A stretch of 64,000 nucleotides of DNA from Acholoe squamosa (Eukaryota; Annelida; Polychaeta; Phyllodocida; Polynoidae). Below the pieces are notes generated by a model. It saw only the letters and a program-made list of their open reading frames with translations, was not told where the DNA came from and made no database searches. Of this stretch, positions 14,121 to 61,497 are shown in pieces. The position numbers and the translations under genes were made by a program. The DNA is taken from positions 13,929,174-13,993,173 of the forward strand of contig OX439042.1 of assembly GCA_949317995.1 (NCBI GenBank), written 5' to 3'. Each line of letters opens with the position of its first letter. The first letter of the stretch is position 1.

Positions 14121-16374
14121 TCATGCGTCCTTGGTGGAGTCTGACTCATGCAGGAATGCGCAGGCGACAAACTGTCCCTCTTGGTACTCATCCTGCACGA
14201 ATACAGCCGTATCCTCAATGTCCATTGTCGATCCGCCCTCAAAAACGGGAGGTGAGGTTGGTCCGTCCTGTCGCATGTGCTTTGTGACGGGGGCCTCAAC
14301 TGCACGCTCCGCAGCACGCTTTCGTGCGGCACACGGAGGCACATTTTCTTTGTTAGCCGTGGCTGGGGCAGGAACCATGTTCTTGCGGGTGCGCTTGCCA
14401 GCCACGACGGGTGAGGGACCCCCTTGGCGCTTGCAGGCAGAGGTGCTAGCGACAGGAGCGGGGAGAGTGTTCCGTACCGAAGTACCTTGAGTCTGCTTTG
14501 GCGGGGGTACATCATCGCCGTCCACCTCAGCAGGGACAGTCCTCTGTCGCGTCTGCCGTGGTGGGGGAGGAGCCTTCTTGTTGTTGAATTTCATTGGGTG
14601 TGTGATCCAGTCTGGACACCCATGAATGGACCTAAAGTCGGCCCAGCAGCACTCGCTGAAGCATGATTTGTGGCGTACAGCGAGGGACTTCCCGGGTTCG
14701 GCGGGCACAGCAGCATGAACTTTCTGGGTGCCCTTGATGGACTCGTCCGCTGCTACTTTGCCGACTGTGAGACGGGCGGTGGCGATATCCGCAACCGGAA
14801 CGCAGCTGTACTTGACGCGGCCTTCGAGTAGGTTGCCTTCAGCCGCGAAGCGCTCTGCATTCTGGATTAGCGTTCCCCTGTTGACGAGGTTGTCTGCGTT
14901 GCGTTTTGCTGCAGCTCCAACGCCGTCACAGGGGCCCTTTCCGTGTCCCGCCTCGAAGTAGGTCCATGTCGCTTGTAGACCACTGACAAGTTCTGCGTGG
15001 CGCACCAGTATGGAAAAGATGGAGATGTTCCGATACTGGCTCGATGGGGAGTCTGATGCATAGTGCACCCACGCGACCTGGGGCAGGTTCTCTTGCAGGA
15101 ACGCTGCCAGAACTTGAATGAATGCCAGGATCGCAACGGTGTCATGCTTTCTGTCGTCGGTGACGAGGGCCACAGAGTGGTGTCTGATCTCCCCAGTTGG
15201 TCCGTGCCGGTAGTGAAGGACTGCTGGGTGGAGCGTAACCGGGTCTTTGGCGTAATAGACACTCTGTGGCCCATCAGGATACGAGACAAGCCAATTCTCG
15301 GCGAAGTCCATCTGGATGACTGTCTCGTACACTGACAAGGAACTCCTCAGTTCACGCACGATCCGGTGTTGGCTACGGGCCCGATCGACGTGGTCGGCCA
15401 TGGACATGAACTCGTCCTTGACCAACGTGATGAACTCCTTTTTGGATTTATCGGTTACCCAAGTGGGCCGGAGCTTCATCACCATCTTCTTCTCCTCGGG
15501 CTTGCCGTAGATAACCGGAACGTACTTCCACGTCAGGTAGTCTACATGGTCCGTCTTCACCGACTGGGTCAGCTGTTGCTCGAACACGTCCGCAGTGGTG
15601 TTCTGGACCAGGGTGTCCACTGAAGTCTTGATGTTAGCTGCCTTCAGCATGAGAGCGAAATTTTGATGTTTCTGGCAGAGGCAGATTTTCTCATTCTGCA
15701 GCTCTACCGGAATTAGATAACTATGTTTACTCCTGATGTTGTAGAAGGTGGTGGACTCCACAGGCCAGGCAGGGTTGGTGTCAAGGTAGCGCTTGTGGAG
15801 GACATACACAAACTCCACCAGGTTCCTTTTCTGTTCTCTGACCTTGACACCATCCAAGTTAACAATGATGGAGTCACCTTTGCCTGGCATCATGGTGGAG
15901 TTTTCCGGTAGGCACAGGAACTCAACGACTGCTGCCTCGCGTGCCTTTGCATTGACAGTGCTTTTATGGGGCTGATCTGAAGGGGGTGACGCCAGAGACT
16001 TGCGGTTGACCTTAATGTCCTTAGCCATCTGGGTGGTGAGACCCTTTGCTTGAAGGTTGGTTTCAGGGAAGGCCTTCCGCATGAAGTCTAGTGTGTCTTT
16101 GCTGTTGAGAGCCGCCACCCCATCGTAGATAAGATCTTTACACTGTTGCTGCTTCTGTGGTGTAGCAGCTGGACCGGCCGCCTGTGCCAAATCCGATTGT
16201 AGACGCGCCTGCATAGAGGACAGCGACTCTCGCGTTGCAGCCAGTGTCCTCTCGAGGTACTTGATGCGGTTAGTTTTAGGTGTTGTGGTCTTCCTTGTCT
16301 GGTTCGGTGTCGTTGTCGGGGGTCGGTTTGCAGGGGTCGTCATCATTTTCGTCTGACCGGTAGGCGGGGAGGTG
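14121..16374 (-). CDS. transposase exon 4: catalytic DDE domain
   Basis: The last and largest exon, about 750 codons. The acceptor is tttccaatttacag just 5' of 16374; the first base completes a Val codon begun in exon 3, so the phase matches. Numbering from the upstream Met at 16430: zinc-like CLCQKH (250-255), MDFAENW with Asp375, ASDSPSSQYRN with Asp460, and FEAGHGKGPCDG with Glu493/Asp502 are the candidate catalytic core of an RNase H-fold transposase. A Cys/His group follows at about 590-606 (CFSECC, HGC). Then comes a Pro/Ala/Lys-rich disordered tail. The exon is much more GC-rich than the flanks. Long antisense frames (14059-14490, 15063-15623) are shadows. Superfamily not assigned; DDE assignment is by motif recognition only. 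Confidence 0.8.
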
Positions 16375-18446
16375 CTGTAAATTGGAAATGAGAAAGCATT
16401 AACAAATTGGTATTTAGAAATTTGAGGCATTAGTCAGCAAAGCGAATATTATGTCACTACATGAGCTAATTTCACTACATGAGCTAAATTAAATTGTTAA
16501 TCATTTATGCTTTACTTGTGATATTATGTCATGGTGATAATATTAACCAGTAATTGTAATAACAATACGATGTCATGTACATGAGCTAATTCTAAAAAGG
16601 TGGCAATACAAGTATAGTCAAATAAGCAGCAACAACTAACATTAAACAAGCAACATCTCAACATGCAACACAACTAGTCTATTCTAATATAGCATTCTAC
16701 TGTATAATTACATTATGCTACTCCTGCTCAACGGAGCGCTTCAAGGTAGCACTGGAAAATGAATGGCAATTATAAGAATTATCTGGACTAATAAATAGGT
16801 TAGGCTAATAAACCACCAGGTTAAAAATTTGTGATTGTGGACCTTATGTATGTTTAAATGACTCTAGATAGGTAGTACAATCTCTTTTGTCAATGTGTGT
16901 GCAATGCAAATGGTATATGATGGTGTAGAGTTGAGCTGTGGCCATTCTTTGATAGGTTAACGACTGGGGTACGTTAATGATCGGTACGAGCAATTTTGAC
17001 ATTAACAAAGTTAAAATTCTATATTTTCAACCTATCACTTGGTCTGGTATTTCTAACATTTCTATTCAATAGTAGAGGTGTGTGGTTTGTCAAAAAATAC
17101 TATTTGGTGTATATAAAGATACATTTTAGCACTCCATGACATGCCGATGTTGCGAGAAGTGTAGAAATTTTGTGATTTTTTAATTTTCAAAGCCACAGTG
17201 GCCAGACAAGATGGACCTTATGCATGTTTAAATGACTCTAGATAGGTAGTACAATCTCTTTTGTCAATGTGTGTGCAATGCCAATGGTATATGATGGTGT
17301 AGAGTTGAGCTGTGGCCATTCTTTGATAGGTTAACGACTGGGGTACGTTAATGATCGGTACGAGCAATTTTGACATTAACAAAGTTAAAATTCGATATTG
17401 TCAACCTATGACATGGTATGGTGTTTCTAACATTTCTATTCAATAGTAGAGGTGTGTGGTTTGTCAAAAAATACTATTTGGTGTATATAAAGATACATTT
17501 TAGCACTCCATGACATGCCGATGTTGCGAGAAGTGTAGAAATTTTGTGATTTTTTAATTTTCAAAGCCACAGTGGCCAGACAAGATGGACCTTATGCATG
17601 TTTAAATGACTCTAGATAGGTAGTACAATCTCTTTTGTCAATGTGTGTGCAATGCCAATGGTATATGATGGTGTAGAGTTGAGCTGTGGCCATTCTTTGA
17701 TAGGTTAACGACTGGGGTACGTTAATGATCGGTACGAGCAATTTTGACATTAACAAAGTTAAAATTCGATATTGTCAACCTATGACATGGTATGGTGTTC
17801 CTAACATTTCTATTCAATAGTAGAGGTGTGTGGTTTGTCAAAAAATACTATTTGGTGTATATAAAGATACATTTTAGCACTCCATGACATGCCGATGTTG
17901 CGAGAAGTGTAGATATTTTGTGATTTTTTAATTTTCAAAGCCACAGTGGCCAGACAAGATGGACCTTATGCATGTTTAAATGACTCTAGATAGGTAGTAC
18001 AATCTCTTTTGTCAATGTGTGTGCAATGCCAATGGTATATGATGGTGTAGAGTTGAGCTGTGGCCATTCTTTGATAGGTTAACGACTGGGGTACGTTAAT
18101 GATCGGTACGAGCAATTTTGACATTAACAAAGTTAAAATTCTATATTTTCAACCTATCACTTGGTCTGGTATTTCTAACATTTCTATTCAATAGTAGAGG
18201 TGTGTGGTTTGTCAAAAAATACTATTTGGTGTATATAAAGATACATTTTAGCACTCCATGACATGCCGATGTTGCGAGAAGTGCAGAAATTTTGTGATTT
18301 TTTAATTTTCAAAGCCACAGTGGCCAGACAAGATGGACCTTATGCATGGTAAAAACGACAATTCTACTAACATAGGGTGGATCCACAGAAAACACAATAT
18401 CTGCACACAAGTGATTTGATACCTTTAAAGTGATCATAATACTTAC
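16375..18446 (-). other. transposase intron 3, filled by the right satellite array
   Basis: Bounded by a GTAAGT donor at 18446-18441 and a TTACAG acceptor at 16380-16375, read on the minus strand. Most of the intron is the tandem array at 16850-18355. The remainder (16431-16850) is AT-rich and without features. Confidence 0.75.
16850..18355. repeat. right tandem array of 374-bp units
   Basis: Four units with GGGGTACGTTAATGATCG starting at 16966, 17340, 17714 and 18088, an exact 374-bp period. Units 1 and 4 share one variant of the segment after the motif (CTATATTTTCAACC) and units 2 and 3 share another (CGATATTGTCAACC), an A-B-B-A order. Each unit holds TATATAAAG on the + strand. The array is the reverse complement of the left array, so the two could pair as a long inverted repeat around the catalytic exon. 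Confidence 0.9.
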
Positions 18447-19452: not shown

Positions 19453-19661
19453 CTGAATTCAGAAAGGGAAAGACACATTAAGTAAACTGTCACACTGGCG
19501 AGTTACTCGCAGCAGTGTTTTGACTTAGCATTTACAGTATCTGTCCCTTGAAATTTGTATACTTATTAACATTCTTAATCTCATATCACAATAAAATGTT
19601 ACCACCAGAGTAGCAGATTTTGAGGCACCACAGAGACTGAGAGGACGGAAAATTATCAAAC

Positions 19662-20009
19662 CTTGTTCTCTTTCAGTCTCTCCCGGTAAGCCTTCTTCCG
19701 GGCATGGAGCATCTCGCGCCGCCGCTGCTCCTCAGCAGGGTCTCCCGCCAGTCTCTCCCTGTCCTTTTTTCGCTGGCGACGCGAGATCTCCGCCCGGTGG
19801 GCATCATAGGCGGCAGCCCCCATCTCCTGCCGCAGCCTGGTCTCGTACCGGGCCGAAGCTGCGGCATGGAGACGGGCCGCCTTCTCCCGGTCCTCCCGGT
19901 CCTCCTGCTCCTCCAGGTCTGGAGCATCAGCGGGAGCGTGCTCCCGCACACACCTCTTAGGGCGATGGGGGGGGTCGCCACCACCGCCACTGGGGGCTAC
20001 GTCAGCCAT
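19662..20009 (-). CDS. transposase exon 1: Met and basic coiled region
   Basis: 116 codons from ATG 20009-20007 to a donor AAG|GTTTGA at 19662/19661. It starts MADVAPSGGGG, then runs into a charged helix rich in Arg, Lys and Glu (ISRRQRKKDRERL, RKKAYRERLKENK). Basic RERLK-type N-termini are common in this class of transposases. A 3' splice site (TTTTTGCAG) lies immediately before the ATG, so a 5' UTR exon, or a further coding exon, probably exists upstream. Joined to exons 2-4 it gives about 1120 residues, placing the candidate Asp residues at about 726, 811 and 853. Confidence 0.65.
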
Positions 20010-21933
20010 CTGCAAAAATGAGAAGAAATACATTAAATAAAAAGGTAAATAGTGATTAAACAAGTTCCTATATGCTGACAAAGGATGTACAACAAAGCCA
20101 AAGATTTTATCAGAGGTTTTTATGCTGATATGGTAATTCATAGTGAGGAAATCAGTAGATTTTAAGATAATAAGGAATTTGTTAGTGTTTGAATACTGAT
20201 AAGATATACATAAATAAATAGGAAAAAAATATTCATCATGTTCCTATATGCTTACAAATGATGTACAGTAACCCCGGAAGTTCAATCAGCTGATTAATTG
20301 CTAATATGGAAATTTATACTGACAAAATATAAGGAAAATGCTGAAATATACCCACCACAAAAATTCTTTGGAAAAAAAGTATTCAGTATCTAACTAATGA
20401 CACTTGTGTGAGTTAGAGGTACCATAGGGGCATGTCATGGTGAAATATGATGGAGCTATGTGCACTGGAAGTGCCACTTGTGTGGAAAATACAGAATAAG
20501 AAGGGGGGGTATGTTAATGATCGCAAAGGTTTATAACCACTCAGCAGTGGTGGCTTTGTGCAAGGGTGAGCTTACCTGGTCAACACAACAGAGGGGGGAC
20601 ATGTCTAACATACCCACCATAAAACATCCCCCTGAATCCAAGATTGCGACCAGTAGGCAGGCATCTTGCCACCAGGGTACGTTAATGACCGACGAACACT
20701 ATCTTCCTAAATTTGGCCACTATGGCTATGCTTTCGATCCCACAGGAGGATTAACACACCAAAATGCCCAAATAGAGGTAGGAGAAGGAATATAACCCCA
20801 AAAAACCATGGGATAAGCACAATTTTGGCTGTGAGGGGGCCTAAAAGTTCACGACTAGGCAGAAATTTGGCCATTCAAGCCCAAATTGGGGTGGGGGGTC
20901 ATCTCAAAACACCCAAACATGGACCAAAATGCATCTTACACACGTAGGGGGTCCTATTCTAAAGGATTATCAACAATTTAGACCCAAGGGTACATCATCT
21001 CGGCCAGGAGAGGCCAAATTCTGCTTGCCGAGCGAAAAATCATTAACGTACCCCAATTTTGAAAATACAGCCCGGGGTGGCCAAAGCTTCACCCTGGGGC
21101 CCCGGGCTGCATCGCAGGCCTCCCCCGGCAACACATTTTACCCCCTAGCATCCAAAATGCATCGTTCCGGTACACAAAAATTGATCTACGGCCCCCCACA
21201 GACATCTGCAACAATATTTCATCGCAATATCATGGAATTTCGTGGAATTTCCTTACCTTTTTCACGAATTTGGCGTTCCTTTTGCAGGGGAACTCTGCTT
21301 AGGGGTAGCTATAAACAAGCTGTGACCTCCTCTGAGCTGAAACACGGTACCCGGATGCAGGCCACTTCCGCCGGGCAACAGGAAGTCGTTTTTCTCTTCC
21401 CGCGCTGTTTTTCCCGCCGCCGATCATTAACGTACCCCGCTTACGAAGAGACCCCACATACAGCCAAACCAGACTGTATTTGGCCACAATTCTTGTTCAG
21501 GCATGATGTATTTACTCTAAAAGTGACCATAGACTGTGGGAATTGTATGTATTTGGTTTATTTTATTCTATTTAGAGGCAAAAGCCCGGGGTACGTTAAT
21601 GATTGCGGTGTGCATTGAAAATCACTTATATGTGCCTGCCAAGGGTAATTCCCGGAGTACATGAAAAATTTTTTCATGGAAGACTCCCCCCTAGGGTACC
21701 TCTTAATTGCATATAATAAGAACACTGATTATATTCCCTAACCAGGTTAGATAGGCTCTATCATTAACGTACCCCACATGAAAATTTATAATTAAATGCA
21801 TATAGAAGATAAATTATGCCCCAAGACCCACCCAAACCATATGGAAATCTTAGCTGTGACCCCCCACTAAGGAATAAAAATATTATTGGTGGTGTAGAAG
21901 TGTTTCCCTTGTTATTATATGCCCAAGAAGCCA
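20010..21933. other. right subterminal DNA of the transposon
   Basis: Contains the putative 5' part of the transposase gene and seven further copies or variants of the 18-bp motif, at 20506, 20675, 21041(-), 21421(-), 21588 and 21762(-) plus partials. A GC-rich patch at 21050-21130 includes CCCCGGGCTGC. A 229-codon + strand frame (20929-21618) runs across several of these motifs and resembles no family, so I do not call it a gene. Confidence 0.5.
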
Positions 21934-24245: not shown

Positions 24246-24380
24246 GCACTGAATGTCTGACTGTGATCTCAAGATCTTGGGCTACATTTTGGCCTCCATG
24301 GCTTCCAAATCAGACAATTATTGAGGATTTTACTGCCTAAAACAAAAGGTGTTACTTTTTGTTAAATTCTGAAGAAATGA
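24246..24380. repeat. 135-bp direct repeat ending at psi1
   Basis: Nearly identical to 23456-23590. Its last bases (ctgaagaa) are also present in channel copy 1, where psi1 homology starts, which suggests a microhomology junction. Confidence 0.75.
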
Positions 24381-25496
24381 GGTCTTCTATGGTGATAGAT
24401 ATTACAAATATAATTCACTGAGTTGCCTGGGAGAATGCAATTTGCAATACATCATTGATCATTGTAACTGCACGGATCTATTTGTGCTTCAAATCATGAG
24501 TACCAGCCACCTGCTGGGGAATACTGTGCCTCACTAAGACAGTCAGTTGATGACCTATTTAAAAATATGAAATGTGTGGAAAGATCAAAAGCAGTAAGCC
24601 GAGCAGAAAATATCGAGAAGTGTAAAGAACCCTGCAGTGAGATCAATTATGTCTATTCGACTATTGCTAAGTGGCCACTTCCATCTCAGCTAGGATCTTT
24701 TTACAACAATGTGATTTTGAAACATAGTCATCTTTATAGGCAATACAAGCAGTTAGAAGAAACAGCCAAGGCCATGGAAGCAGGTTCTAAAAACCCCAAT
24801 CAACAGGTCACTCATATCAAAAGCAATTAAAGACAATTTTGGTCTTGTTTTCATTTACCTTCCTGATGCATATATATTACACTCACTATGAGGCCAAATA
24901 AAAAAAAAGGTTTGTTTCCAGTAACACGACCGACCCTAGCAAAACAGGGGCAAAAAAAACTTTTTATTTTGAAGAATTTTGTCTAATTTTTTCATATTTT
25001 ACTTTTTGAGGATTTTTCCTGTATCCTTTTTGTGTTCTTCCCCTCACTCAGAGTTCTCATTTTCCCATCATTATCTTACAATGAAATCAAAGAATTTGAT
25101 ACGTCCATTGATATATGCCTTAACATTTCCTATATAAATGTAAAAAAAAAACAAAAAAAAAACCTACCGACCTTAGCTCTTTGAGCTTTGTTACTGGAAA
25201 CACACCTTTTATTTTTCTTGGCCCGAGTCTAAACCAAAAATTACAATTGATGCTCTGGTGTCACAGCTAGGTGGTACCCTGAATCTCTGGTCAGGAATAA
25301 CAGTTATGACTTTAGTTGAAATTATTGACTTGATGATAAAACTTTGAGTCATTTAGGAGGACGACGGCCATCACCAGCTGGAGTTTCTGGAAAAGAAATT
25401 CAGATTCCTGGCCAGGCTAGAAATAATAGTGAGGTAAACAAGATTAAGAGAGACAGTTTACAATCACAACATATACCAGCCCATGCAGAATTGTGA
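24371..25496 (+). pseudogene. psi1: 3' half of a DEG/ENaC channel gene, MITE-split
   Basis: Homologous to copy 1 from about residue 296 to the end: CLGECNLQY, HCNCTD, CKEPCSEI, AKWPLPSQLGSF and LGGTLNLWSGIT are all readable. The 5' half is absent. A one-base deletion after DLFVLQ shifts the frame, the Cys of copy 1's GECIKKC is lost (ENIEKC), a further shift follows the GSKNPNQQ region, and an in-frame stop follows the TM2 segment. A MITE at 24893-25224 splits it just before SKPKITIDAL. It is closest to copy 1 (7186-8868), including the 3' flank, so it is a decayed duplicate of that gene. It is not expected to give a channel. Confidence 0.9.
24893..25224. mobile_element. MITE with GGCCAA ends inside psi1
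   Basis: Ends are inverted: GCCAAATAAA... at left and the complement of GGGCCAAGAAAAATAAAAGG at right, then a second shared block GTTTCCAGTAAC. It is flanked by GAG on both sides (24890-24892, 25225-25227), a 3-bp duplication. Inside are A-runs and no ORF. End bases and 3-bp duplication recall the 2.1-kb element at 35119, so a Harbinger-type origin is possible. Confidence 0.65.
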
Positions 25497-30540: not shown

Positions 30541-30965
30541 ATACACCTCCTCGCCCGGCAGCAGACAGCGCCCGTCTCGGCTAGCCTTGGCAGCGGCACA
30601 CGGCAAAAAATAGTGTACATACACCTCGTCGCCCGGCAGCGGACAGCTAAAGCTTTGAATGCGTCTCGCGGTTATGTTTGTGTAAAATTCACCTCCTCGC
30701 CCGGCAGCGGACAGTGACAGCACCCATCTCAGCTAGCCTTGGCAGCGGCACACGCCGAAAAATAGTGTACATACACCTTGTCGCCCGGCAGCGGACAGCT
30801 AAAGCTTTGAATGCGTCTCGTGGTTATGTTTGTGTAGAATACACCTTCTTGCCCGGCAGCGGACAGCGACAGCGCACACAGCAAAAAAAATATGCGTCTC
30901 GCTGTTATGTTTGTGTATAATACACCTCCTCGCCCAGCAGCGGACAGCGACAGCGCACACGGCGA
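30541..30965. repeat. GC-rich minisatellite, two-subunit period
   Basis: CGCCCGGCAGCGGACAG recurs with its ATACACCT leader starting near 30541, 30619, 30687, 30771, 30839 and 30920. Intervals alternate (78, 68, 84, 68, 81), giving a higher-order unit of about 150 bp. No protein-like frame. Confidence 0.85.
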
Positions 30966-30971
30966 AAAATA

Positions 30972-31050
30972 GATGCACCTAGACCAGGATGCAATCCGCC
31001 TACCTCTGACGGCTGAGCGCAATGCGCTAACCACTAGACCACCGCGTCTA
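30972..31050 (-). other. tRNA-like pseudogene
   Basis: On the minus strand GGTGGTCTAGTGGTTAGCGC is a good A-box/D-arm text, but the B-box region (GGATTGCATCC) departs from GGTTCGANNCC and the acceptor stem does not pair cleanly. It caps the minisatellite, so it is probably a SINE head rather than a working tRNA. Confidence 0.5.
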
Positions 31051-31181
31051 CTCCTCCAGCGGCCGTCTCGGCTTGGCTATGTTTGAATGCGTCCCACGGT
31101 TATGGTAGCGGTCAGCCCGCAGTTGTTGCCTGCCCGGCCTTTGTATCATATCCAGACCTGGTTATAGCCAGCCCCTACTTG

Positions 31182-31477
31182 TCAGTCCCTGTGGCGCAAT
31201 GCATAGGGAGTTGGATTAGGGATCTGAGACTGCAGGTTCAAGCCCTGCCCTGGCCATGAAATTTCGTGGGTTTTAACATGTAACATATGACATGTAGGGA
31301 CATGTAAGGTATGCAGGTTATCCATGGATAATGGCACCGGGTGCCTGTTATCCTTGGATAACCGCACACCTTACAAAAGTCATGCTACAGCATTCATGCT
31401 GTGCAATATTGACAGGTATGTGCATGGGAATATCCAGCAAAAAGCACTGTGCAACCCAGAAATCGTGGTATAATAAG
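31182..31477 (+). mobile_element. tRNA-derived SINE
   Basis: A tRNA-like head with A box TGGCGCAATGC (31192) and B box GGTTCAAGCCC (31235-31245) is followed by an unrelated body and the tail GAAATCGTGGTATAAT. The same tail closes the SINE-like element at 40893-41150. Pol III promoter boxes are intact in sequence. Confidence 0.65.
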
Positions 31478-31638
31478 AAATGTTGAATATGCGCTGCATG
31501 AGCTCTGAAGGGACGAGAGATGTTACAGTGACAAATTAACAGAAAGGCATTCTCTAAGGAGTATTACATCTGTATAAACATACAGTGTACAGAGTTAATG
31601 TCAAGTAGACCACTTACTATGAAGACAGAGAGAGAGGA

Positions 31639-33015
31639 AAGAACGATTTGGTTCGAGGAGATGCATCATTGTTTGACGTAATCCTTGCTGTTAATGGTAT
31701 AGGGGAACGCCTAGCTAGCCTTGACACAACGATAGGAGACCTCGAAACTAAGGTTGGCGGCATAAATGACTCCATCACCACCATACATGGAACTCTGTAT
31801 GGGTTCAAGGATAGAAAGAAAAAGACTGAAGACATGTTGGAGGGCTTAAACAAAACACTGTCAGAAGCTGCCACCACCATGAAGTCATATAGTGACACCG
31901 CCCAAGCTCAGACGCAACTTTTGCTGAATCATTCCAGACGATTTGAAAAAATGGACATGGTGCAAAAAAAGAAAATTCTCATAATGAAAGCCCTAAAAGA
32001 AATTAACAATGAGAATCTCACTGAGAGAATGGAACAATACTTCCGGGATATTAAAATTAATTTCGGTAGTGAAACCATCGAAAGTGTGAGTCGCAAGTGA
32101 CCTGCCCTAACTCTAACCCAAGATGGTGGTGCCCATGATGACAACAAACCCGGCCAGCAAACACGACTTTTCTTCACTAAAAGTCACTGCAAAGGTACTT
32201 TAATGAAGAACCTAAAGAATCTAAAGGGTAAATTGGCTTATGACAAGGTGTCGGTCGGTGATGAGTTAAATGAGGTTGAACAGCGACAGTTTACAGAGCT
32301 GAGATCGATGTATTACCGGCCGAAATCCAATGGCCACAACGTGGAACTGAGACAGTGGGCTATTATTTTGGAGAAGACAGACACTTACAACAAGTTGAAT
32401 GCCCTATCATACCCATATCTGACCCTTGAAAATGCCATGCAAGCGACTACTCCTGATGGTTTAATGTTCAAGAGCAGACATCACCACCTCTCCAACCTAT
32501 ACAAGACCCCTATAGTGTAGAAAGGGTTTACATACCACTCAACTGAGCAGGCGTTCCAGGTAGTGAAGGCCGAGACCTGCAGCTACAAGGATTTCTCAGC
32601 CAAACTTCTCAAGATGGACGATCCTTTTGAGATCCTGCTGGAGGCGAAACAAGTTAAACCAAACCAAGAATGGGCGAGGAGTGCTGAGTCTGTTATGTTT
32701 GATGTCAATATGTGCAAGTTTTCTAAACCTGAACTCAAGGACTACCTCACTTTAATTCAAGGCCAATTATATGAGGCGAGTTTTCACCCCACCAGGGGGT
32801 CTGGATACCATTTTGGTCAGTCAAAGCAATGCACACGAGACAATGTCAAAGCAGAAAATATGATCGGGTTCATCCTAGCACAAGTGAGGGAAAAACTGCA
32901 AAATCTACCAGACCAGAATGAGAACAAGGATGATAGACAATCTCACACCTCTATGCCCGGTCTAGAAGGCGATGAAGAAGAAACCAAAGGTCAACAGGAA
33001 AAAAAAAACTACTGA
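31639..33015 (+). pseudogene. LINE copy 1 ORF1: coiled coil + RRM-like + NADAR domain
   Basis: One reading frame of about 459 codons broken by TGA (32098-32100) and TAG (32518-32520). First third: heptad-like helix (NGIGERLASLDTTIGDLETK), as in nucleic-acid chaperone ORF1 proteins. Middle: RRM-like KKILIMKALKEI then FRDIKINF. Last part, about 32450-32900, is a NADAR (DUF1768/YbiA-like) domain: HHLSNLY, STEQAFQVVKA, KMDDPFEI, EWARSAESVMF, KF, LYEASFHP, then NMIGFILAQVREKL. NADAR proteins act on ADP-ribose-linked or ribosyl substrates; the family's usual Trp-Gly is replaced here (HPTRGSG). Start codon not resolved. Domain call is by motif order, without an HMM search. Confidence 0.8.
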
Positions 33016-33612: not shown

Positions 33613-34400
33613 ATGACTGGTGAGTTACCTGAAATTAAAAGGGGCTTCTCAGTAGTGCATCTAAATGCCAGAAGTATTCGCAAAAAAAAAATGACTAATC
33701 TAAAGAAGGAATTATGTAATAATCATATTGATATTATATTATTTTCAGAAACCTGGTTAAATGAGATGGACAATAGTTTGTTATATTCTTTTCCAAGATA
33801 TAACTTATTTAGATTGGACAGAATAAGCCTATTTAGAGGTGGTGGCCTCTGCGAGCATGTAGATGAAAAGTTAGCATGTACAATAGAAAAAAATAAACAT
33901 CTAAATCGAGACAATGAAGACATTGAGATTCAGTGGTTATTCTCTCCCATGGCGGAAGGTGAAAAAAATATATAGTTATAAATGTATACAGGCCTCCTGA
34001 TGGGTCTCTTCAAAACCTTTGTGATACCAGACGAGCCTTATTTATACAAGTTGATCCATTTGATGCTTATGATGTATTTGTGTTAGGATTTATATTTTTG
34101 TTAGACTTTAATGTAAATTGCCTAAACAATAGCAATGAAAAAAAAAATAGATTGTATGAAGTATTTGATGAATTTAATTCGGTAAAGTTGTTAAATGAAA
34201 TTACAACAACATCTGGTACTAATACTTGTATAGATTTAATTTTTACAAATTGTGATAATATTGTCTCTTGCGGACCATTGAATATACACCTGAGTGATAA
34301 TCTTCCAAATCACTTGGTACGTAGAAGAATGTCAACCCCACATATAGAACCTTTATGGGCAGATCCTATCGTAATGTTGATCTTCAAAAATATTTGAATG
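33613..34400 (+). pseudogene. LINE copy 1 ORF2: endonuclease part
   Basis: Apurinic-like endonuclease of the EEP fold: HLNARSIR carries the metal/substrate Asn, and ILFSETWLN the catalytic Glu. A second piece at 34080-34397 has FNVNCLNN and TTSGTNTCIDLIFTN, the expected downstream motifs (family form TSLID.IFTN). Frameshifts near 33975 and 34400 break it. Confidence 0.75.
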
Positions 34401-35118
34401 ATTTGAGTCACCACAATTGGACCCTTTTTGACAACTCAAATGATCCTTTTTGACAACTCAAATGATCCTTCCCAGTGTTTGGAAATTATGGAAAATGTCT
34501 TAAAAAGATACTTGGATACACAATGCCCGGTAAAAAGGTTTAAGGTTAAGGAAATTCCTAACCCATGGATGACAAATGAACTCTTGGAAAAAATGAATGA
34601 CAGAAATGCATTTTACTTGAGGCAAGGACGGACGTCAGTGTCATTACCTGGTATAGAGCTAGAGTCTGTCGTAATAATGTTAATGCACAAATACAAAAAG
34701 CAAAAGAGACATATTATGATGAATTGTCTGATTCCCTTGCAAAGGATTCTAAAAAGTTCTGGACCTGCCACAAAGATATTTTACCATCTAGTAAGTCAAA
34801 TACAAAAACCATTAATCTGGTGGATGAAACGGGCAAAGAAATTACTCTTGGGAATACTTCCCAATATATTAATGATTTTTTTACGCAAATTGGACCGCGC
34901 CTAGCACAGTTACATAACACCGACTTTACTTTTAAGGGGAAAAGGTGTGCCGTTGACATGCCTGACATTGAATTTACAGATGAAGAAATTATAAATTGTA
35001 TAAAGGAAATTGATGTCTCCAAATCCTCAACTATTGAATACTTGTCTTCTAATGTATTTAAACAAGCTATGTTACACATGCCACAACATCTTATAAGATT
35101 AATAGGACTATGTATTAA
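34401..35118 (+). pseudogene. LINE copy 1 ORF2: linker between endonuclease and RT
   Basis: Two overlapping frames contain NPWMTNELLEKMNDRNAFYL and, later, KKFWTCHKDILPS with a NDFFTQIGP segment, which are standard linker texts of CR1/Jockey-type ORF2. It reads into the site of the 35119 insertion (LCIN at the junction). Confidence 0.7.
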
Positions 35119-37250
35119 ATGGGCCAAATTTTTGAATGTGGCACATTTGGCCCTGATAAATCAAAAACAGTGAAATTCAAAATAAGTTACACTTTATTAC
35201 ATTCAAAGAGCAATGTCTTGGCTGCATAAAAACACCTGACATACGCAGCAACTCCTAGCGGGTCCGTTTTTATAAGCGTTCAAAGATAATCTGTTGTAAT
35301 TTGTGTTACTCCCTGCTCGAAATTCAGAGACCAACTAGATATACCTCTTAACTATATCCTAGTGACTCCTAAATTCATTTACAACATCTACTAGTAAGTA
35401 TGTATCATGATTCAAAAAATAAATATGTTTCTTCAAATACTTTCAGAGATATCGGATATTAAACTTTTGTCATTGACTGATTTTTCTGAGAATTTTTTTC
35501 TAAAACCCCAATTTTCATCTCACTTTGTTAAAAGGTGTCAAATAACCACCAACTTTCATCTACATTAACTTCAATATGCATACTTTAATATGCAACTACC
35601 ATCTGTTCCATATCTAGCAGTAGTTTGTGATAGAACTGGTCACAAGTTGGACCACAATTTGGTTTTTTTTAGCAGGGAGTAACATGTTACTCCCTGCCCA
35701 AATTTAATTTCACCCCCCAAATAGCACAAAGTGCAAATTATGTACACAAATCTACATAAATAGATTAGGGGGACTCCATAACAAGCAAATCAAACAGTAG
35801 TAGGTGGAGTTTGATGGATATTCCTCAAAAAAATTACAACATTTTCCTATCAAGTGTTACTCTCTGCTCAAATTTCAAATTCCACCATTGATTGGGTTAG
35901 TGGGGCAAAATAACTGCAGGTGGGTAACATATAACACATTTTTCTGAATAAGTGACAAGTGCATCTATCATAAAAGCCACAAAAAACAGTAATCTTTACA
36001 ATATTAGGGACATGAGATGTGAAACAGACACTTAACGTATTGGGATCATAACCAAATACTCCAGGAAGATACAGGAGTGTATAATCTATCATCAGGATAT
36101 CATATATACACATTTTGATAACTGAGGGAAAGGAGAGTGAGCTTTAGCGGCAGAATCTATTTTGAGCAGGGAGTAACACACATAGGGCACGGGCAGGCAA
36201 CATGCTTCAACCCCATATAACGCCCAGTCATTTAGAAATAGTGGTAAAATGTCACCACTTACCAATGGACAACATTGGTTTTTGTCAAAATAAAAGCATT
36301 TGGACCCCAAGAAAGTACATCAATGTGTGCCCTAGACCTTCATACATGTTATTAAGGTGAATTTTTGGCTGATCCCTTACCCTTTTTTGCTGTAGGAATA
36401 ACAATTGTCTGTAAAATTGGACAAAAAGAGGATCAAACGATAGCTGGAAGTGTCCTTGTTGTGATTAAAAAAGAACTTAGAATTATGAGCAGAGAGTAAC
36501 ATCCGATCATATTTTATGGTCTACAAATGGCACAAGGAGTCAATATTCGACCAATTTTTGTTCATGATTAATTAGGGGGTGCCAATACACTATGCAAAGG
36601 AAAAATTTACTGTAAAGAAGCAGTAGAATTTGATTCATTAACCAAAATGTTAAATGTTACTCCCTGCTCAAAAATGTGTATGCTAATACACTTTAGGGCA
36701 AGGACTAAAAGATAATGGGTGTGGCCGCAACTTTTTTATACCATATAAACCCTTCAAATGTCCCTCAAAATTAAGTGCAGCATGGATGGTAGAAACAGAA
36801 TATTTCATTGGTATTTTTAGGAGGTTTATTTTTGAGCAGGGAGTAACATAATGCTACCTTTATTTAGTATGAAGGGGGAGAAAAAAAATCTACCATGTAC
36901 ACCAGGTTAAAACTCTTTGGATCTCAGAGTTAACATATGTATTGAATTCCAAAAGTGATTTTCAGTGGTTTTGTACAGTATAAGCAGCATGTGGGGGGTG
37001 TGAAAAATTGTATTTTCTAGGGAAATACACACTTTTTGGTCTTTTTTCAATTCTGTAGACCCATAATTCAAAATGATTATGGTCCAATTTGCTCAAGTTT
37101 ACACTCATTTGAAAGCTTAGGATGTTTTCTCTAGGATGATACCATAAAACACCAGGCTAGTGCATAGGTTTTGACCCTATTGGTAGGTAAAGCTTAAAAT
37201 TAAAAACCCTGTAAAATGCTAAAAGTACCATTTTCAAAAATTTGGCCCAT
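35119..37250. mobile_element. 2.1-kb non-autonomous DNA transposon, Harbinger-like, inside the LINE
   Basis: Inverted ends ATGGGCCAAATTTTTGAA, flanked by TAA on both sides (35116-35118, 37251-37253). Removing element plus one TAA restores an open LINE frame (tgt att aat atg agt). The TAA duplication fits PIF/Harbinger. It has no transposase frame. The motif TGAGCAGGGAGTAACA occurs eight times: + at 35671, 36163, 36486, 36833; - at 35304, 35685, 35855, 36655. The copies at 35671 and 35685 abut as a 26-bp palindrome. Degenerate longer units surround some copies (compare 35770-35870 with 36575-36670). Confidence 0.85.
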
Positions 37251-38538
37251 TAATATGAGTTGTATACCTGACGGCTGGAAAATAGCAACAGTGACACGGC
37301 TGCCTAAGGGGGGGGGGGCACTTGAATGTATCAAACTATAGACCAATAAGTGTTTTACCTATTCCAGGAAAATTTATTGAGCGCTTGATCCACACAAAAC
37401 TTAGTGAGCATTTAGAAAATTATGATATATTATCAAAAAAACCAGGGAGGCTACCAGAAGGGTAAATCAACTTTAGATTCTATTAATGTTTTCGTAAACC
37501 ACATTCTAAAAAACAGAAATTCAGGAAATATAACTTTAGCAGTCTTTATTGATATCAAAAAGGCTTTTGATTCAGTAAATCACTTAAAACTTCTGAACAA
37601 ATTACAACAATATGGCATACGCAACAGGACTTTGACCCTAGTCGAAAACTATTTATCTCAGCATCAACAGTGCGCAATAGCTAGCCATGTCAGATCTGCA
37701 ACCAATTATCTAAGGTCCCTTGTTTTTTCTCTTGTATATTAATGACTGTATTTCTAAACTTGATACCCATCATCAGATCATACTGTTTTATATGCCGATG
37801 ACTCAGTTTTGTTTGTAACCGGTAGAAATATAAATATTTTGAGTGAGCAATTACAAATAGCATTGCAAAATTTTTCTCATTGGGCTACATCAAATAAACT
37901 GACCACGAATTCAAACTAAAATAATGACGTGTGCATCCTCAAAAAGGTTTTAACAAATTACAAAAACCTAAGATTGTGGTTGATGGTAAAACCATCATGA
38001 ATGTAGTTTAGACCAAGAGCTTTACTTTACCATGTATGCACGTTCAGTTATTAAGAGCATACGGTATAAGTTATTATTATTGTACAAAGTGAGGAAATTC
38101 ATGTCTAATAGAGTGAGATTACATATCTACAAAGCTCATATACTGCCCACCTTCGACTATTGTGACATATTGTATCATAGTGCTAAGGTTGAGAATCTTA
38201 ATGAAATGCAACGCTTACAGAAGAAATGTTTAAAATCACGTATGGATCTCCATGTCTTAACTCTGACAGATTATATTCATAGAATTACCAAAATATCATT
38301 GTTGGAGAATAGACGGGAATGCCATGCTAAGATTCATGCACATAAAAGGTCATTAAACCCTGAATTTTGTAAAGTGAATGTAAGAGAAACTAGACTTAGC
38401 ACTGCTCCAGTTTTACAGTATGACATTATTAAATACAAAGTATATGAGAAAAGTCCTGAAGTAATATCTGCCGAGTTGTGGAATGCTCTTCCAACATCAC
38501 TCAGAATTGTTAAAGACCATGATAGTTCAAGTCTGTAG
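37251..38538 (+). pseudogene. LINE copy 1 ORF2: reverse transcriptase and C-terminus
   Basis: Starts CIPDGWKIATVTRLPK, then a shift, then [24 protein letters not shown], then LYADDSVLF (catalytic YADD, about 37776-37802). The C-terminal part 38032-38538 has LPTFDYCDILYHSA and AELWNALPTSLR. The sequence is broken into at least three frames, and the GVPQGSILGPLLF block is eroded. Relatives: CR1/Jockey group, not resolved further. Confidence 0.8.
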
Positions 38539-38640: not shown

Positions 38641-39330
38641 GGTGAGTGCGTTATTTTACATGTATTAAGGTAAATTCTGCTGCTGCCGTTCCTAATAAGA
38701 ATATATCTCTTTACCTAATATGATAATTCCTTTCATGATGTAATCTTTGAAGGTAACATTAATATGGATCCCCAACACAACAGCTTCACTGACAGGTGGA
38801 TACCATTAGCTTTTACCCAATTTAGAGAAATCTGGTTATGGTTATGGATTGATGTACATGAATTAAATTGTGGCTAATAAAGATTAAAGTATTTAAAAAA
38901 ATAAAGGAGTTACAGATAGTAGACTCTGTACATTCCAGTACAAAAATACTGCCCAGGAGGCTATTCCAAAATGGTGGTACTTTACGAATGTGTTGGATTA
39001 TAAATCCTCTGGGCCGCATGAAAATGCCTAGGTATTTCCAAACCATGTACTAGCAGTTAAGTGTCAACAATTTATGAGGGTAGCATTGCGTTTTAACATA
39101 TTATGTGCCTTCTTGTTTTCCCGATACATAAAGGTAAAATATCTAGATAGCTTTTGACAGTGTTGGATCTATGGTTTAAGCCATCCCTACAGGTCTTGCC
39201 TTGTACTAATGCTAAAATCTGTGTGTTACTGTATGGAGGAAAAGGCTTCTAGTGCCAATGTAGAAGTTGCCTTATATTTCTTTAAAGCACAATATATCCA
39301 AGATATATCCAAACCTTTTTTTTCTTTTTA
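38641..39330. other. intergenic, nothing recognised
   Basis: Starts after the LINE tail and a G-run. Two opposite short frames at 38822-39053 are shadows of each other. Confidence 0.45.
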
Positions 39331-39338
39331 TTTTCTAG

Positions 39339-39683
39339 GTTTTCCTTCTCACGATGCACTGATGTGCATAGTACTGAAATAACTACATGCACTGATGAGG
39401 TGAAACAAGCTATGAGCGCGTCATCCCTTGAAGGGCTTCCTAGGATAACGGTGGCCCGCAACAACCTCGATTGTAGCAGTTATCTCCTTCCTCTGTATTT
39501 GTGCAGTGACTGTATATTCTAATCTTGCTCCATATCTTAGCAATCCTCAAGTTGTTAATGTTGAGGAAAAACTTATAGTCCCAAAGGATCCAAATAGGAT
39601 GGTACCATTTCCAACTGCTGCGGTATGTAATACAAATCCCTTCAGCAGCAGTCCATTTGACTTTGAAAAGAAAAACATCGCCA
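39339..39683 (+). pseudogene. psi2: 5' end of a DEG/ENaC channel gene
   Basis: Homologous to copy 1 from its 5' UTR splice acceptor (TTTTATTTTCTAG at 39326-39338) to about residue 104 (KKNI). The start codon reads ATA, SLKG reads SLEG, and a net 14-base deletion removes RTIWS-equivalent codons and shifts the frame before TM1. After that VNVEEKLI, DPN and AVCNTNPFSSS are readable. Homology stops abruptly at 39683. Presence of the intron acceptor shows DNA-level duplication, not retroposition. Confidence 0.9.
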
Positions 39684-48985: not shown

Positions 48986-49041
48986 TTTTGTTTTACAGAA
49001 CATATGTGAGGCAACTTTCGGCGAGTCATTTTCTCACCATC

Positions 49042-52898: not shown

Positions 52899-54575
52899 CA
52901 GGGTAGTTTTAACAATGTGATATCTACAGTAGTATATCCTTTTTTCTGCACATCTTTTGATATATATATTCAATATATTCTCGACAGGTGTGCAGCTTAT
53001 AGATGGGTATTTAGTACTATAGAGCAGTATACTTAAACTTACCAGGCCCAATTGGGCCCCAGATATGGTTTTTAGCCTTCTCCCAAAATGAGAGTATGGA
53101 TAATATGTGGGCGACTGATACACAGGGATTTATGGTAGTTCCTATACTCATTTAAGCCCTCATTCCCTTGACCCTAACGGATGCATTAATGTAAAGATAT
53201 GCAAAAATATGATAAAACCGAATCCAAACACCTCATAAGATTTTTTACAACACAGGGTTCAAACTTGTAGCCTTAAATTGCCATGCACATCTGACTGGCA
53301 TAAGTGAAAAGACATTCAATAACCCCACCTGATACCGTATTGAATCAGCCAAAGTAAATACTCCCTCCTGTCGTAATTAATACTATGTAAATTTGTGTGC
53401 AGTTACTAATCAATGAAATGTAATGCCTTCAATTGTTTCCACGACAAACATTATTTATTATTCCCATAGCAACTAATGCACATATTTCGTACAGAGCTGT
53501 TAACCTTTACCCCTTTAAAGGTCAATTGAACATTAGTGCATCATGTGCCTTGGTTGTCATGATACTACACCCTTGGTGCATCATTACGCCACTAGGAGGC
53601 TGTGTCGACCCACATGGTCAGTTAAAGGGCTATATATAAAGTTTCCCATGAAATAAGTCCTATTTTCATGAATGCAGCTAGTTACTCAACAAAGCTCCAT
53701 TTAGTCAGAGTGGTAAACTAACCTAATAGGCTAATTGTAAAGGGTAAAGTGGCTCAGTGTGTATCCCATAAATCAGCCTCTGTGTTTACTTAGGAAATGA
53801 CATAACACACTGTCTCACACCCTGTCTATTACCATGTGTGATAGTTACTGGTGAGTAATGGAGTAGCCATTCATCATCAGCAGGGGGTAGGGTAACAGAG
53901 AGGTGGAAAAAATATTTGACCCCTGGAGGGGGAAATTATCCATGAAAAGTTTCCATGGCCTAAAAAGCAGATTGGGGAAAGCAAATCATTGACTAAAAAC
54001 AGGGTTATCGTTCACTCATCTCCACTCCTGCCCCCTTGATAAATGATGATCACTCCCCAATACACACAGTTAATTTAGTTGCAGGGTTGAGTACACTAAG
54101 GAAGGTCTTTGATTCACCTTCCATTTAGCAAAGAGTTTGGACACGACTAGCCTCCCTCAATTGCAAAATAAGAAACAGGAGGTGATAAACCCAGTGGGGA
54201 ATCCAGGATTTGAAAAAGAGAAGTATGTTCCTTCTATGATTTTTTTTTAAATAGGCATATTCTTTACTAAAGGACAAAAGAACTTTGGTAAAGGTTCATT
54301 ATGCATAGACTTTAAAGTACATGTGTTCGGTAGAATCTATACTGAGATCTATACTTTTTTCAAGTTTGAACATTTCTATATTGACTGAATGTGTCATAAC
54401 AATGAGCGTTTTATGAACAGCCAATTATATATAGATGAACAAAATGAATGTGTAAATATAAGAATAAATATTATATAAATAATCTTAACATTGACCAATT
54501 TGAAGTTTTGTGCATCACCTTTTGTCTTATAAAACAATATGTATGTATATTCCTAATTATTTTTACCTACTTCAG
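52899..54575. other. intergenic and 5' UTR intron of channel copy 3
   Basis: No supported gene. The 3' end is a splice acceptor TTTACCTACTTCAG (AG at 54574-54575). Confidence 0.5.
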
Positions 54576-54587
54576 GAAGAAAAAAAT

Positions 54588-57729: not shown

Positions 57730-57959
57730 TACAAGATACACCTTCATCTACATGGGCACATAGACCTCCTCTACCTCAGGTAGACAGATGATCTCTTCCT
57801 CGGGTAGACAAAGTTTGCCTTCTGTACCCCAAGTGCATAAGAGATCTCTACCTCAGATGGACTATGAATTGCTCGTCTACCTGAGGTAGTGCAGGAACTG
57901 CTTATCTACATCCGGTAGACAACTGCTTATCCACCTCAGGTAGACTTTGACCTGCCTTA
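57730..57959. repeat. CTACCTCAGGTAGAC minisatellite, left part
   Basis: At least six copies of a palindromic core CTACCTGAGGTAG, spaced about 25-50 bp. It continues at 61518-61775 beyond the inserted LINE. Confidence 0.8.
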
Positions 57960-58286: not shown

Positions 58287-59617
58287 TTATACAAGTTCTT
58301 TCAATAGCAGCATCATTTCTACTTTAGATTCTTTTAATTTTCTAACCCCCATCCCCAGACTGGCACTGTAACCACAACTAGTCATGGCTTTATATTTATA
58401 AGTTTTGCAATTATATTTCTGGGATGAGGGAGTCAAGCTCCTTCTTACAAATGAGCTTGAATTCCTCCCGGCTGCGTACATTCCATAAAGTAACAGGTAA
58501 ATTATTCCAAACCTGTGCACATTTGACCTCAGGTGATTTTTGGTAGCTGTACAATTTATTTTGTTATATTTTAGAACTGGGGCAGCAGAAAATCTAGTCA
58601 CCCTTACTTTTTGTTCCAGGAAATCCTCATTACATTTTTATGGGCGATCAACTTAATATGATAATTTCTATGTGAGTCTAACTTGGGTACCACAGCTTTA
58701 CTATGTACATAATCTGTAGGGGTCAATAAATGCATATCAAAACACGTTTTCAAACATTTGTTCTGAAGTCTTTGTAACTCCTCTAAATAATCTGTCTTTG
58801 CCTCACTATATAGAATGTCACAATTATCAATAATTGGCAAAACATGCATTTTGTACATTAGAAGTCTAGCTTCGTGAGACAAATATTTCCTTGTTTTATA
58901 TAATAGTAAAGATTTGAATCTTACATTATTAACAACAGACCTCAAATACATGTTGAAGCTTAGTTCAGGATCAAGTGTGACCCCTAAATATTTATAGCTG
59001 GCCATATTCATCGGTTGCTTGCCATTGACCATTATTTTTGGTTTTTGAATTTTCTTTAACTTAATCGAAGAAGCAATAGTCATAATCTTTGTTTTAGATT
59101 CATTCATGGTTAATTTGTTTCTAGAGGCCCAAATTGAGAAATTTTGTAAGGTAATTTATTTGATAGTGTTCCTAAATCCTTACCCGAGACATACAAAACA
59201 GAGTCATTAGCATACAACAGAGTTTCATGAAGATCAGTAGAGGATATACAATCATCAACATACAATAAAAAGAAGAGAGGACCCAAAATTGACCCCTGTG
59301 GTACTCCACAACATAAAGCTCTACACATCTTACATGGTTCGCTATGGAACATTGTTGTCTCCTGGAAAGGTAATTTTAAGTGTTAGATTTCTATTTCGTA
59401 CCCCATATTGTTCTAGCTTTTTTAATAGGATTAAGTGATTTACAGAATCAAAAGCTTTCTTTATATCAATGAAAGCTGCCAACGTGATATTGTTATGATT
59501 TCTATTACAAAGTATATCATCAACTAACATAGAAATTGTATCTAATGTGGATTTCTTTTCCTGGTAACCGCCCTGTTTTTTTGTCAAATTGTTATATTTT
59601 AATAAATGAGCAGTCAA
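58287..59617 (-). pseudogene. LINE copy 2 ORF2: reverse transcriptase remainder
   Basis: Contains [40 protein letters not shown], then GVPQGSILGPLFFLLYVDD, then LLYANDSVLY where the catalytic YADD reads YAND. Next come YKYLGVTLDPELSF and LPIIDNCDILYSEAKT, typical of the thumb and C-terminus. Two or more frameshifts. The Asp to Asn change alone would kill the enzyme. Confidence 0.85.
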
Positions 59618-60035
59618 TTTGTAATGATATTACAATTTGCTAGCTCCTCTTTAATTTTTGTAATTTTATTTCTCATACTTCTGGCATTTAAATGAACCGA
59701 GAAACCTTTCTTAAACTTGTTTTTAAGATTCATGTAATATAGTGGTCAGACAAAATACCACCATTTATTTCAACGCAAGGTTTATACGGTACCGGTACAT
59801 CTCCATATCCTACCAGACTCCTTCAACACAACATGCCCGCTTCCAGAGCTTTATATTAAAATAACCCATGAAAACCCAGAAACCGACCCACCACAGGCTT
59901 ACAGCTCTTATGGCTACCCGTGGGATCATTTAGTTTGGTTATATCTATGATCCCCTTGATTTGCACTCTATCACCTTCAAATCATGAAACCAAAAAAAAA
60001 GAAGCATATTATGGTCAGCAATCACATACCGTAGC

Positions 60036-61376
60036 ATTTGTTATATGGAAAATTTTACATTTTGAAGCACACAAAAAATTAATAGATACATCAGTCATTT
60101 TCTGGCTCAAAGGTTGGGTTCTAGTGGAGTTTTCCCCCTTAATATTGTCCCTAGTGCATTGTTGGGCTTGACCAAAGTGATACTTTACCCCCCCCCCCAT
60201 ACAGGATGAAAACTAGCCTCATAGAATACCTGATTCTTATTGGTCAACATATAGGTTTTCATACAGTCAAGTTTAAACTTGGATTTCGTTCTGGAGTTGG
60301 TGTAATCTTCTTCCTTCATACATTATCTCTACCGGGTCCTCCATGTTCATCATTTTTGCTGCGACCTCATTCTGCCCACAGGCTTGTGCCTTCGCCACCT
60401 GGTATGCATGCTCTGCACTGTTGTAGTCAAAACCTTTGGGATTAAATTCACATCTATATAAGTTAGACAGACGGTGGTGCTTTGATTTAAACATTAGACT
60501 ATTAGGGGTCTTAGCTTCCATGGCACTTTGCATATTCAAGTCAGGATATGGCATTTGGAGTAGTTGCGAATGATAAATTGTTTTTTCTCAAGAATTGAAA
60601 GCGCTGTCGAAGTTGTACATTGTAGCCTTTGCGCTTGGCCAGATAGTACATGGCCCTTAATTCAATAAATTCCTTCTGTTCTTTTTCATCCAGCTCGTCA
60701 CCCACTGAGACATACTTGTATAAAAGCTTACCCTTGAGGTTTTTGAGCAGCTTCATAATTTTCCCTTTTGTTTGAGCATTTTTGAAGACAATTTTAATCT
60801 GGCGATGTCTTTGTATACCACCTCCATGGGTGCCGCCATCTTGGATCAGTGTACTTCTGTCTCCCACGCGACTGCAACTTTCAATGCTATTGAATCAACA
60901 TTCAATTTAATATCCCGTAGGAATTGAGCAATTTTCACAGTAAGGTCTTCATCCTCACCTTCCTCTAGTCCTTTAATTATTAGGATTTTTTTTTTTGAGT
61001 TCTAAATCCATTTTTCAAACCGCCATGTATGTTGTAGCAAAAGATCGGTCTGGGCTTTAGCGCTGTCTAACTGGATTTTAATGGTGTCACTAGCTTCGCA
61101 TACAGATTTTGACACTGTATCCATCGACCCTTCTGTGGTGGTAAGTCTGTTTTGTATACTATCCAATGTCAAATTCATGGCCTCTGTGGAATCTTTAAGC
61201 CCTAGGATAGATTGTCTAAAGCCAACAATGCTTGTTTGGAAATCAGTCTGTGTGTCTTCAACTGCTGAAACTCTTCTGTCAATCTGGTTGACAGCTGCGA
61301 TGATATCCTTCAAGTTAGCATCTGGAAGAACTAGGTCTTTTACCCTCCTTGGCCTTGATTTATCTCTATTTGAAGA
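60036..61376 (-). pseudogene. LINE copy 2 ORF1: coiled coil + RRM-like + NADAR domain
   Basis: Start Met at 61376 (MSSNRDKSRPRRVKDLVLPD), then a helical segment (VNQIDRRVSAVEDTQTDFQT). A frameshift at about 61000 leads to ILIIKGLEEGEDEDLTVKIA, the RRM-like part, then KNLKGKLLYKYVSVGDELDE as in copy 1. NADAR motifs: LMFKSKHHRLSNLY, YNSAEHAYQVAKAQA, MEDPVEIMYEGRR, and after another shift YEASFHPVWGGG with YHFGQAQQCTRDNIKGEN. The family's Trp-Gly is present here. Domain order equals copy 1. Confidence 0.8.
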
Positions 61377-61497
61377 CATTTTGCAGGTAAAGTGTACTTT
61401 CATACGATAAAACACCAAAATACAGCTTTGTAGGTTGTGATTAACTTAGTCAATTTGGTGATAGAGCGCTCTGTCTTGGTTCACGTCGACCTAACCG

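Follow-up and report, generated by a model that had tools for sequence, protein, structure and literature searches.

NADAR proteins reverse the ADP-ribosylation of guanine, an activity reported for enzymes that include E. coli YbiA and a phage NADAR (PMC11543638, PMC11125620), and their role in animals is described as unclear (PMC11125620). Among retrotransposons, the closest described systems come from a 2025 report (PMC12477816): several Tx1 LINE families of the oyster Crassostrea gigas, which like the elements studied here carry a NADAR in the ORF1 of an invertebrate LINE, and Gypsy elements of the brown alga Ectocarpus, which also carry a YbiA-type NADAR but differ in being LTR elements with the domain in Pol. 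The text of that report that we compared presents the oyster domain without an analysis of selection or of the active site. A comparable pairing of an RNA parasite with a predicted ADP-ribose remover is described for animal positive-strand RNA viruses, whose NADAR and macro domains, in the account of PMC9503650, differ in belonging to a virus and in lying within a replicase polyprotein. Modular ORF1s that swap domains (PHD, esterase, RRM) are likewise described for the CR1/L2/Jockey elements as ORF1 types I-V, and in the CR1 and L2 groups, it has been suggested, LINE lineages exchange their ORF1s (PMC4120745); the terms NADAR, YbiA and ADP-ribos are absent from the main text of that article. 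No further report of a NADAR retrotransposon appeared among the matches listed in our literature search, with subscription journals, bioRxiv and Repbase outside its scope. The preliminary description of the present locus knew of no standard LINE class defined by an ORF1-NADAR fusion, a statement that the oyster Tx1 elements overtake in part. As far as the searched literature goes, NADAR ORF1s in LINEs outside the L1/Tx1 group, the family of this locus included, are new, as are the presence of several such families in one genome and the evidence on selection and active-site conservation presented below.

The window analyzed here, a stretch of 64,000 nucleotides from the annelid Acholoe squamosa, contains a LINE (copy 1) whose ORF1 occupies 31598..33015 of the plus strand. 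A single ORF1 frame runs from 31639 to 33015 and is broken by two in-frame stops, a TGA at 32098-32100 and a TAG at 32518-32520. Comparison with the relative L040, which has an open ORF1 beginning MSSKPSRKK..., suggests that translation probably began at position 31598, with an ATG that lies in a different frame (MSSRPL...), which would place a frameshift near 31600-31640. The preliminary description had read 31639..33015 as an ORF1 ending in a NADAR domain and had named Pfam PF08719 as the check on that reading; the profile gives a significant match to 32476..32901, with 56.9 bits (E 4.1e-15; cut-off 35.1) when the stop is read as X and 51.5 bits (E 1.8e-13) when only the part that follows the TAG is used. 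The motif order noted at the outset also holds (SNLY, TEQAFQVVKA, DP, W..VM, KF, LYEAS, IGFILAQVREKL), and we regard the identity of the domain as NADAR as practically certain. PHROG 1017, a family of unknown function, matches the same part (3e-13); a plain phmmer search with the copy 1 domain recovered no NADAR from the PDB, and none of the viral contigs searched held a close relative.

A fold model of the copy 1 NADAR (170 residues, with the TAG read as Gln, built on an alignment of 32 phage and bacterial NADARs plus a piece of a second copy in the window) reached a pTM of 0.78 and a mean pLDDT of 82. Only two PDB folds matched it at E<=0.001, both at E 7.3e-06: the ADP-ribose-bound Phytophthora structure 8bau (TM 0.71, 22% identity) and YbiA itself, 2b3w (TM 0.68, 18% identity). 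Since true NADARs in the alignment steered the model, we take this match as a consistency check only. Residues E43 and K50 of 8bau align with the Glu and Lys of TEQAFQVVKA, two of the four columns that are invariant among 34 sequences, and E125 aligns with the Glu of LYEAS, so that copy 1 has the last-strand Glu of the YbiA subfamily rather than Asp or His. Arg replaces the Trp of the D-x-x-W-G motif in copy 1.

The remainder of copy 1 has the order of a LINE, with fragments of an ORF2 encoding an APE-type endonuclease and a reverse transcriptase (RT) after ORF1. A frameshifted endonuclease part lies at 33619..34673 (+) (tblastn with L037, L041 and L100, 38-74% identity), followed by the linker and the start of the RT domain at 34331..35119 (+) (L100 and L099, 53-55%). 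The ORF2 match breaks off at 35116-35119 and resumes at 37249, on either side of a 2,130-bp insert (35120..37249, +) that has 17-bp terminal inverted repeats (TGGGCCAAATTTTTGAA) and TTAA at either side, with one extra A on the left. This insert looks like a non-autonomous DNA transposon, and none of the listed ORFs of at least 100 aa lies wholly within it. The rest of ORF2, again frameshifted, covers the RT and C-terminal domains (37249..38520, +), with an RVT_1 match at 37422-37742 (E 1.5e-10) and 61-72% identity to L100 in the longer tblastn pieces; L100 itself matches RVT_1 at 1.1e-35 and Exo_endo_phos_2 at 5.7e-10. A 3' end of 32 bp (GCTAATAAAG...TTTAAAAAAATA; 38872..38903, +) is 90.6% identical to the tail of L100. 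Given the two in-frame stops, the ORF2 frameshifts and the 2.1-kb insert, copy 1 is dead. Just upstream, at 30920-31481, lies a separate repeat that resembles, in antisense orientation, the far side of L038 (77% identity across 574 bp); tRNA-like A and B box patterns were seen in it by eye, and ARAGORN found no tRNA gene within the window.

A second LINE copy runs on the minus strand from 61379 to about 57960, and its NADAR is also broken. Its ORF1 (60276..61379, -) retains an ATG, is spread over several frames and matches the ORF1 of copy 1 at 38-46% identity (tblastn, best E 5e-39). The N-terminal half of the NADAR (60276-60587, -) is recognized by PF08719 as half a domain, below the cut-off (30.8 bits, E 4.3e-07), and the frameshifted C-terminal half (FYEASFHPVWGGG, KYHFGQAQQCTRDNIKGEN; 60130..60298, -) was recovered by six-frame translation and tblastn; its 37-aa piece alone has no Pfam match. 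ORF2 of this copy (58426..59727, -) comprises a short start of the endonuclease, most of which is absent, together with the RT and C-terminal domains (tblastn with L099, L100 and L041, 41-88% identity), and its RT fragment is 73-82% identical to the RTs of copy 1 and two relatives. Copies 1 and 2 are decayed members of one large LINE family, here called E. Two further pieces were seen nearby, a family E endonuclease piece at 57563-57793 (-, tblastn) and a distant ORF2 C-terminal piece at 62040-62477 (+, 26% identity).

Searches of the source genome (1.48 Gb in 63 contigs) indicate how widely this architecture occurs. With PF08719, all 150 scored places exceeded the cut-off, the lowest at 85.9 bits (3224 first-look candidates); with the copy 1 NADAR, the 150 places scored of 2140 candidates comprised the window itself and 149 others, which are 38-64% identical to copy 1 and many of which lie in open frames of 456-474 aa. 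The two lists share at least 13 places, picked by eye, and thus hold at most 287 distinct scored places. Two of the matches, L001 (6e-54) and L002 (2.5e-49), resemble stand-alone NADAR genes. From 44 loci and the window we drew families that we letter A to H: A (L025, L111), B (L011, L114), C (L006, L008), D (L004, L013, L104, L112), E (the window copy, L037, L040-L042, L079-L098), F (L014, L106, L107), G (L028, L105, L108, L113) and H (L109, L110), with L115 standing singly; other loci belong to A, B, D or E as additional copies. Twelve related ORF1s match the Pfam NADAR at E 1.3e-24 to 4.9e-29. The fusion of ORF1 and NADAR next to an RT, as proposed for this locus, recurs in the source genome: a LINE RT lies downstream in all nine NADAR loci that were read onward for up to about 5 kb (L031 of family A, L032 of B, L101 and L103 of C, L034 of D, L099 and L100 of E, L035 of F, L102 of G), identified by Pfam RVT_1 in 6/6 scanned and by the YADD motif and alignment in L099, L101 and L103. 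We infer that family H and L115 are likewise parts of LINEs.

The RTs of these elements fall into three very different groups. Those of families C, D, E, F and G are 33-66% identical to one another, with two E copies at 74%, and those of A and B are each only 21-27% identical to all other full-length rows. Against L1 ORF2p, family B (L011/L032) scores 233 bits over about 460 aa, A scores 95 and F 63, and E scores 57 bits over about 250 aa, a value that is somewhat low because the frame stops with the RT domain. On these scores, family B is placed in the L1/Tx1 group and may be the counterpart of the oyster Tx1 NADAR LINEs, and family E, compared with L1 as the one reference of that group, does not appear close to it. 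Family E differs from the oyster elements as far as this comparison goes, its RT being also only 23% identical to that of family B. By the patterns of the endonuclease and the C-terminal domain, E, C, D, F and G resemble the CR1/L2/Jockey group and are putatively assigned to it.

In families C, D and F, one or two additional ORFs that contain a motif of the GGFNDLC type separate the NADAR ORF1 from ORF2, and in family A a similar stretch is fused C-terminal to the NADAR. These ORFs (L033:470-2117, L034:1-1071, on the minus strand in L103 and in L035, and the C-terminus of L025) look like SGNH hydrolases by their motifs; their Pfam matches fall below the cut-off (Lipase_GDSL_2 at E 0.0021 for one ORF, SASA at E 0.072 for a family A ORF1), and a comparison of them with the PDB gave no match. 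NADAR and SGNH-like modules may travel together.

Ahead of the NADAR, the copy 1 ORF1 has two further parts. In the N-terminal part (31663..31956, +), where the preliminary description had placed a coiled coil, hydrophobic residues recur with a heptad periodicity that none of 1000 shuffles attained, an indirect test whose outcome is in keeping with a coiled coil, which an L1-type (type II) ORF1 combines with an RRM and a CTD; in five ORF1s given this test, 0, 0, 0, 2 and 12 of 1000 shuffles were as high. The middle domain (31957..32460, +) shares homology with its counterpart in the other NADAR ORF1s (C, D, F, B and H; hhalign probability 99.6 for family E against these). Profile searches with it found no Pfam match and no PDB match. 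An RRM-like nature is plausible for this domain, whose sequence pattern makes it putatively RRM/CTD-like.

The predicted active site is conserved across the families. Among 45 element NADARs, Glu43 and Glu125 are present in every one, and position 50 is Lys in 42 and Arg in three; within D-x-x-W-G, the Asp gives way to His or Asn in all 25 members of E and to Cys in both members of H, and the Trp is kept in 33/45 and the Gly in 32/45. According to PMC11543638, studied NADARs cannot hydrolyse efficiently unless they have the K50 equivalent, and they need the residue at the E125 position; Arg can replace the Lys in vitro, and changing the E43 equivalent to Ala has a minor effect in vitro; neither that change nor Lys-to-Arg gave rescue in cells. 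The LINE NADARs have the fold and the Glu-Lys-Glu set in common with the NADAR hydrolases (Phytophthora 8bau, E. coli YbiA, the DarT1-linked and phage enzymes), from which they differ in being fused to a coiled coil and an RNA-binding-like domain and, in family E, in lacking the Asp of D-x-x-W-G. It could be argued that the domain now serves a structural purpose or binds nucleic acid, having replaced the C-terminal portion of an ORF1 of L1 type, and that its catalysis is irrelevant, as its position at the C-terminus of ORF1 and the changes to the flanking D-x-x-W-G in several families would allow. We find this improbable, because the Glu, the Lys or Arg, and the second Glu are kept in all 45 domains, which come from several deep clades; binding alone would not require these residues, although a module that binds ADP-ribose might retain them.

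NADAR codons in these LINEs are under purifying selection. The dN/dS set comprised 23 ORF1 rows: the window, L040, L041 and 20 others chosen because their open frames are long, a choice that biases against stops and not against amino-acid change. From 253 pairs, the 48 with dS between 0.05 and 1 were used; the remaining 205, which include those that involve the window, were excluded because they lie too close together or are saturated, so that for the window copy, with its own dS saturated, the case for selection rests on its relatives. In the 48 pairs the median dN/dS of NADAR codons is 0.078 and the maximum 0.132; medians for the whole ORF1, the coiled coil (46 pairs) and the middle domain are 0.085, 0.065 and 0.075. 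The coiled-coil maximum of 0.669 and the high values of pairs with L083 are attributable to the frameshifted N-terminus of L083. In family A the pooled pN/pS is 0.18 across 14 copies, whose low divergence (pS 0.03) suggests recent activity; the value for family B is 0.35 (5/6 copies, L029 being filtered out), and those for D (0.38), F (0.23) and C (0.34) come with saturated pS.

In a NADAR tree of 65 rows, support is 97-100 for each of E, G, A, B, H and C+D+F, 15 of the 62 inner branches are starred, and the deep order is unresolved. The stand-alone L001 and L002 join bacterial NADARs (support 94), within a wider set of bacterial and phage sequences (support 92); both of these branches are unstarred. 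AU tests rejected neither a single clade of all element NADARs (p 0.743) nor a grouping of B with E (p 0.668) or with the pair of stand-alone genes (p 0.639), and each constrained tree outscored the quick tree, so the tree search was not exhaustive. It is possible that NADAR was acquired more than once, or that it passed between LINE groups by ORF1 exchange, a route made conceivable by the homologous middle domains and by the exchange proposed for CR1 and L2. A different origin would be a host NADAR exon that a single dead copy acquired by chance insertion or by capture; a chance insertion had been raised at the outset. The window copy is indeed dead; a second, diverged copy lies in the same window, 149 other places in the genome match the window domain, related LINEs with open copies keep a NADAR at a dN/dS of about 0.08, and L001 and L002 group with bacterial and phage NADARs and not with family E (92, not starred). 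The related open copies already refute a chance insertion, and we give that origin almost no credence.

What the domain does for the element can be proposed from predicted features. The family E ORF1 protein would consist of a coiled coil, an RNA-binding-like middle domain and a YbiA-type NADAR; as an oligomer it could coat the LINE RNA and so bring an eraser to that RNA or to cDNA, where the NADAR would hydrolyse ADP-ribose off guanine, or cleave some other ADP-ribose bond, whether on RNA of the element, on cDNA at the target or on RNP proteins, and tagging by host ADP-ribosyltransferases would be undone. Enzyme activity, substrate and counter-defence role are all predictions from sequence, and the notion that NADAR undoes host ADP-ribosylation of the element has, in our estimate, a little less than an even chance of being right; the explanation as a whole, taking the family E ORF1 architecture together with counter-defence, we judge evenly poised. 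More tentative is the broader proposal that LINEs whose RTs fall into three deeply divergent groups carry, in many copies, an ORF1-linked guanine ADP-ribose eraser against writers of the PARP/CARP type, acquired repeatedly or by ORF1 exchange and paralleled in RNA viruses by their NADAR and macro domains; this may hold, and we would lean against it in its full extent.

Possible writers exist in the host. The genome search found 37 PARP-domain stretches among 54 candidates, which are fragments of fewer genes, and no match to a DarT-like writer (one candidate scored). ZAP is PARP13, which is without ADP-ribosyltransferase activity. ZAP restricts human retrotransposition (PMC4441479), and clam CARP-1 attaches ADP-ribose to guanine N2, a bond that NADARs cut, the role of NADAR as eraser of CARP-1 marks being assumed and not tested according to the source (PMC11543638). 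Against counter-defence stands the altered D-x-x-W-G of family E, and the enzyme might instead act on a small molecule or on the end of an RNA. In one alternative, the NADAR acts on NAD- or ADP-ribose-derived ends of the element's own RNA or on repair intermediates, apart from any host defence; this would account for the same conserved residues, and it accords with the role in processing RNA intermediates suggested in PMC12477816 and with the link of NADAR to RNA repair and animal RNA virus polyproteins drawn in PMC9503650. Yet the Pfam matches of the scanned ORFs include no RNA-ligase or KptA-like domain, and we consider this alternative unlikely, if less so than the binding module. Should erasure of host marks be the correct reading, with the LINE NADAR stripping guanine ADP-ribose from RNA or cDNA, host nucleic-acid ADP-ribosylation would be an anti-retrotransposon defence in this lineage, and the guanine-modifying CARP-1 of shellfish would gain a possible natural target. 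A NADAR kept by selection in replicating LINEs gives animal NADARs a testable job.

For comparison, a LINE endonuclease search of the genome (150 of 2754 candidates scored, 12 loci fetched) yielded a distant LINE type with a NADAR within 1.5 kb upstream in 0/12 loci, positive controls being found in 5/5; this NADAR-less comparison covers one distant LINE type only and says nothing of close relatives. Eleven of the 12 fetched loci share one endonuclease motif. These LINEs (L196-L207) have ORF2 frames of 1233-1263 aa and, in 5/12, a CCHC motif upstream in an ORF1. Many of the matches are concentrated in a small number of contig regions (for example C10 at ~76 Mb and C8 at ~11.4 and ~26.2 Mb), as those of a site-specific element might be.

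Elsewhere in the window, a 769-aa ORF without a Pfam match lies in GC-rich DNA (about 55%) at 14121-16430 (minus), near a charged 161-aa ORF at 19656-20141 (minus); the two may be genes of an unnamed mobile element. The larger ORF is flanked by two tandem arrays of opposite orientation (11507-13668 and 16838-18354), with a unit of about 374 bp, that are 81-92% alike. The window also holds three ENaC/FaNaC-type channel genes in single open frames, at 7186-8868, 48988-50682 and 54510-56240, with identities of 49% and 45% between the first and the remaining two. One ENaC-type channel gene was searched, and its top two matches are FMRFamide-gated channels, presumably one from an annelid and one from a mollusc. 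Channel fragments at 24373-25493 and 39379-39679 are up to 87% identical to the first channel gene.
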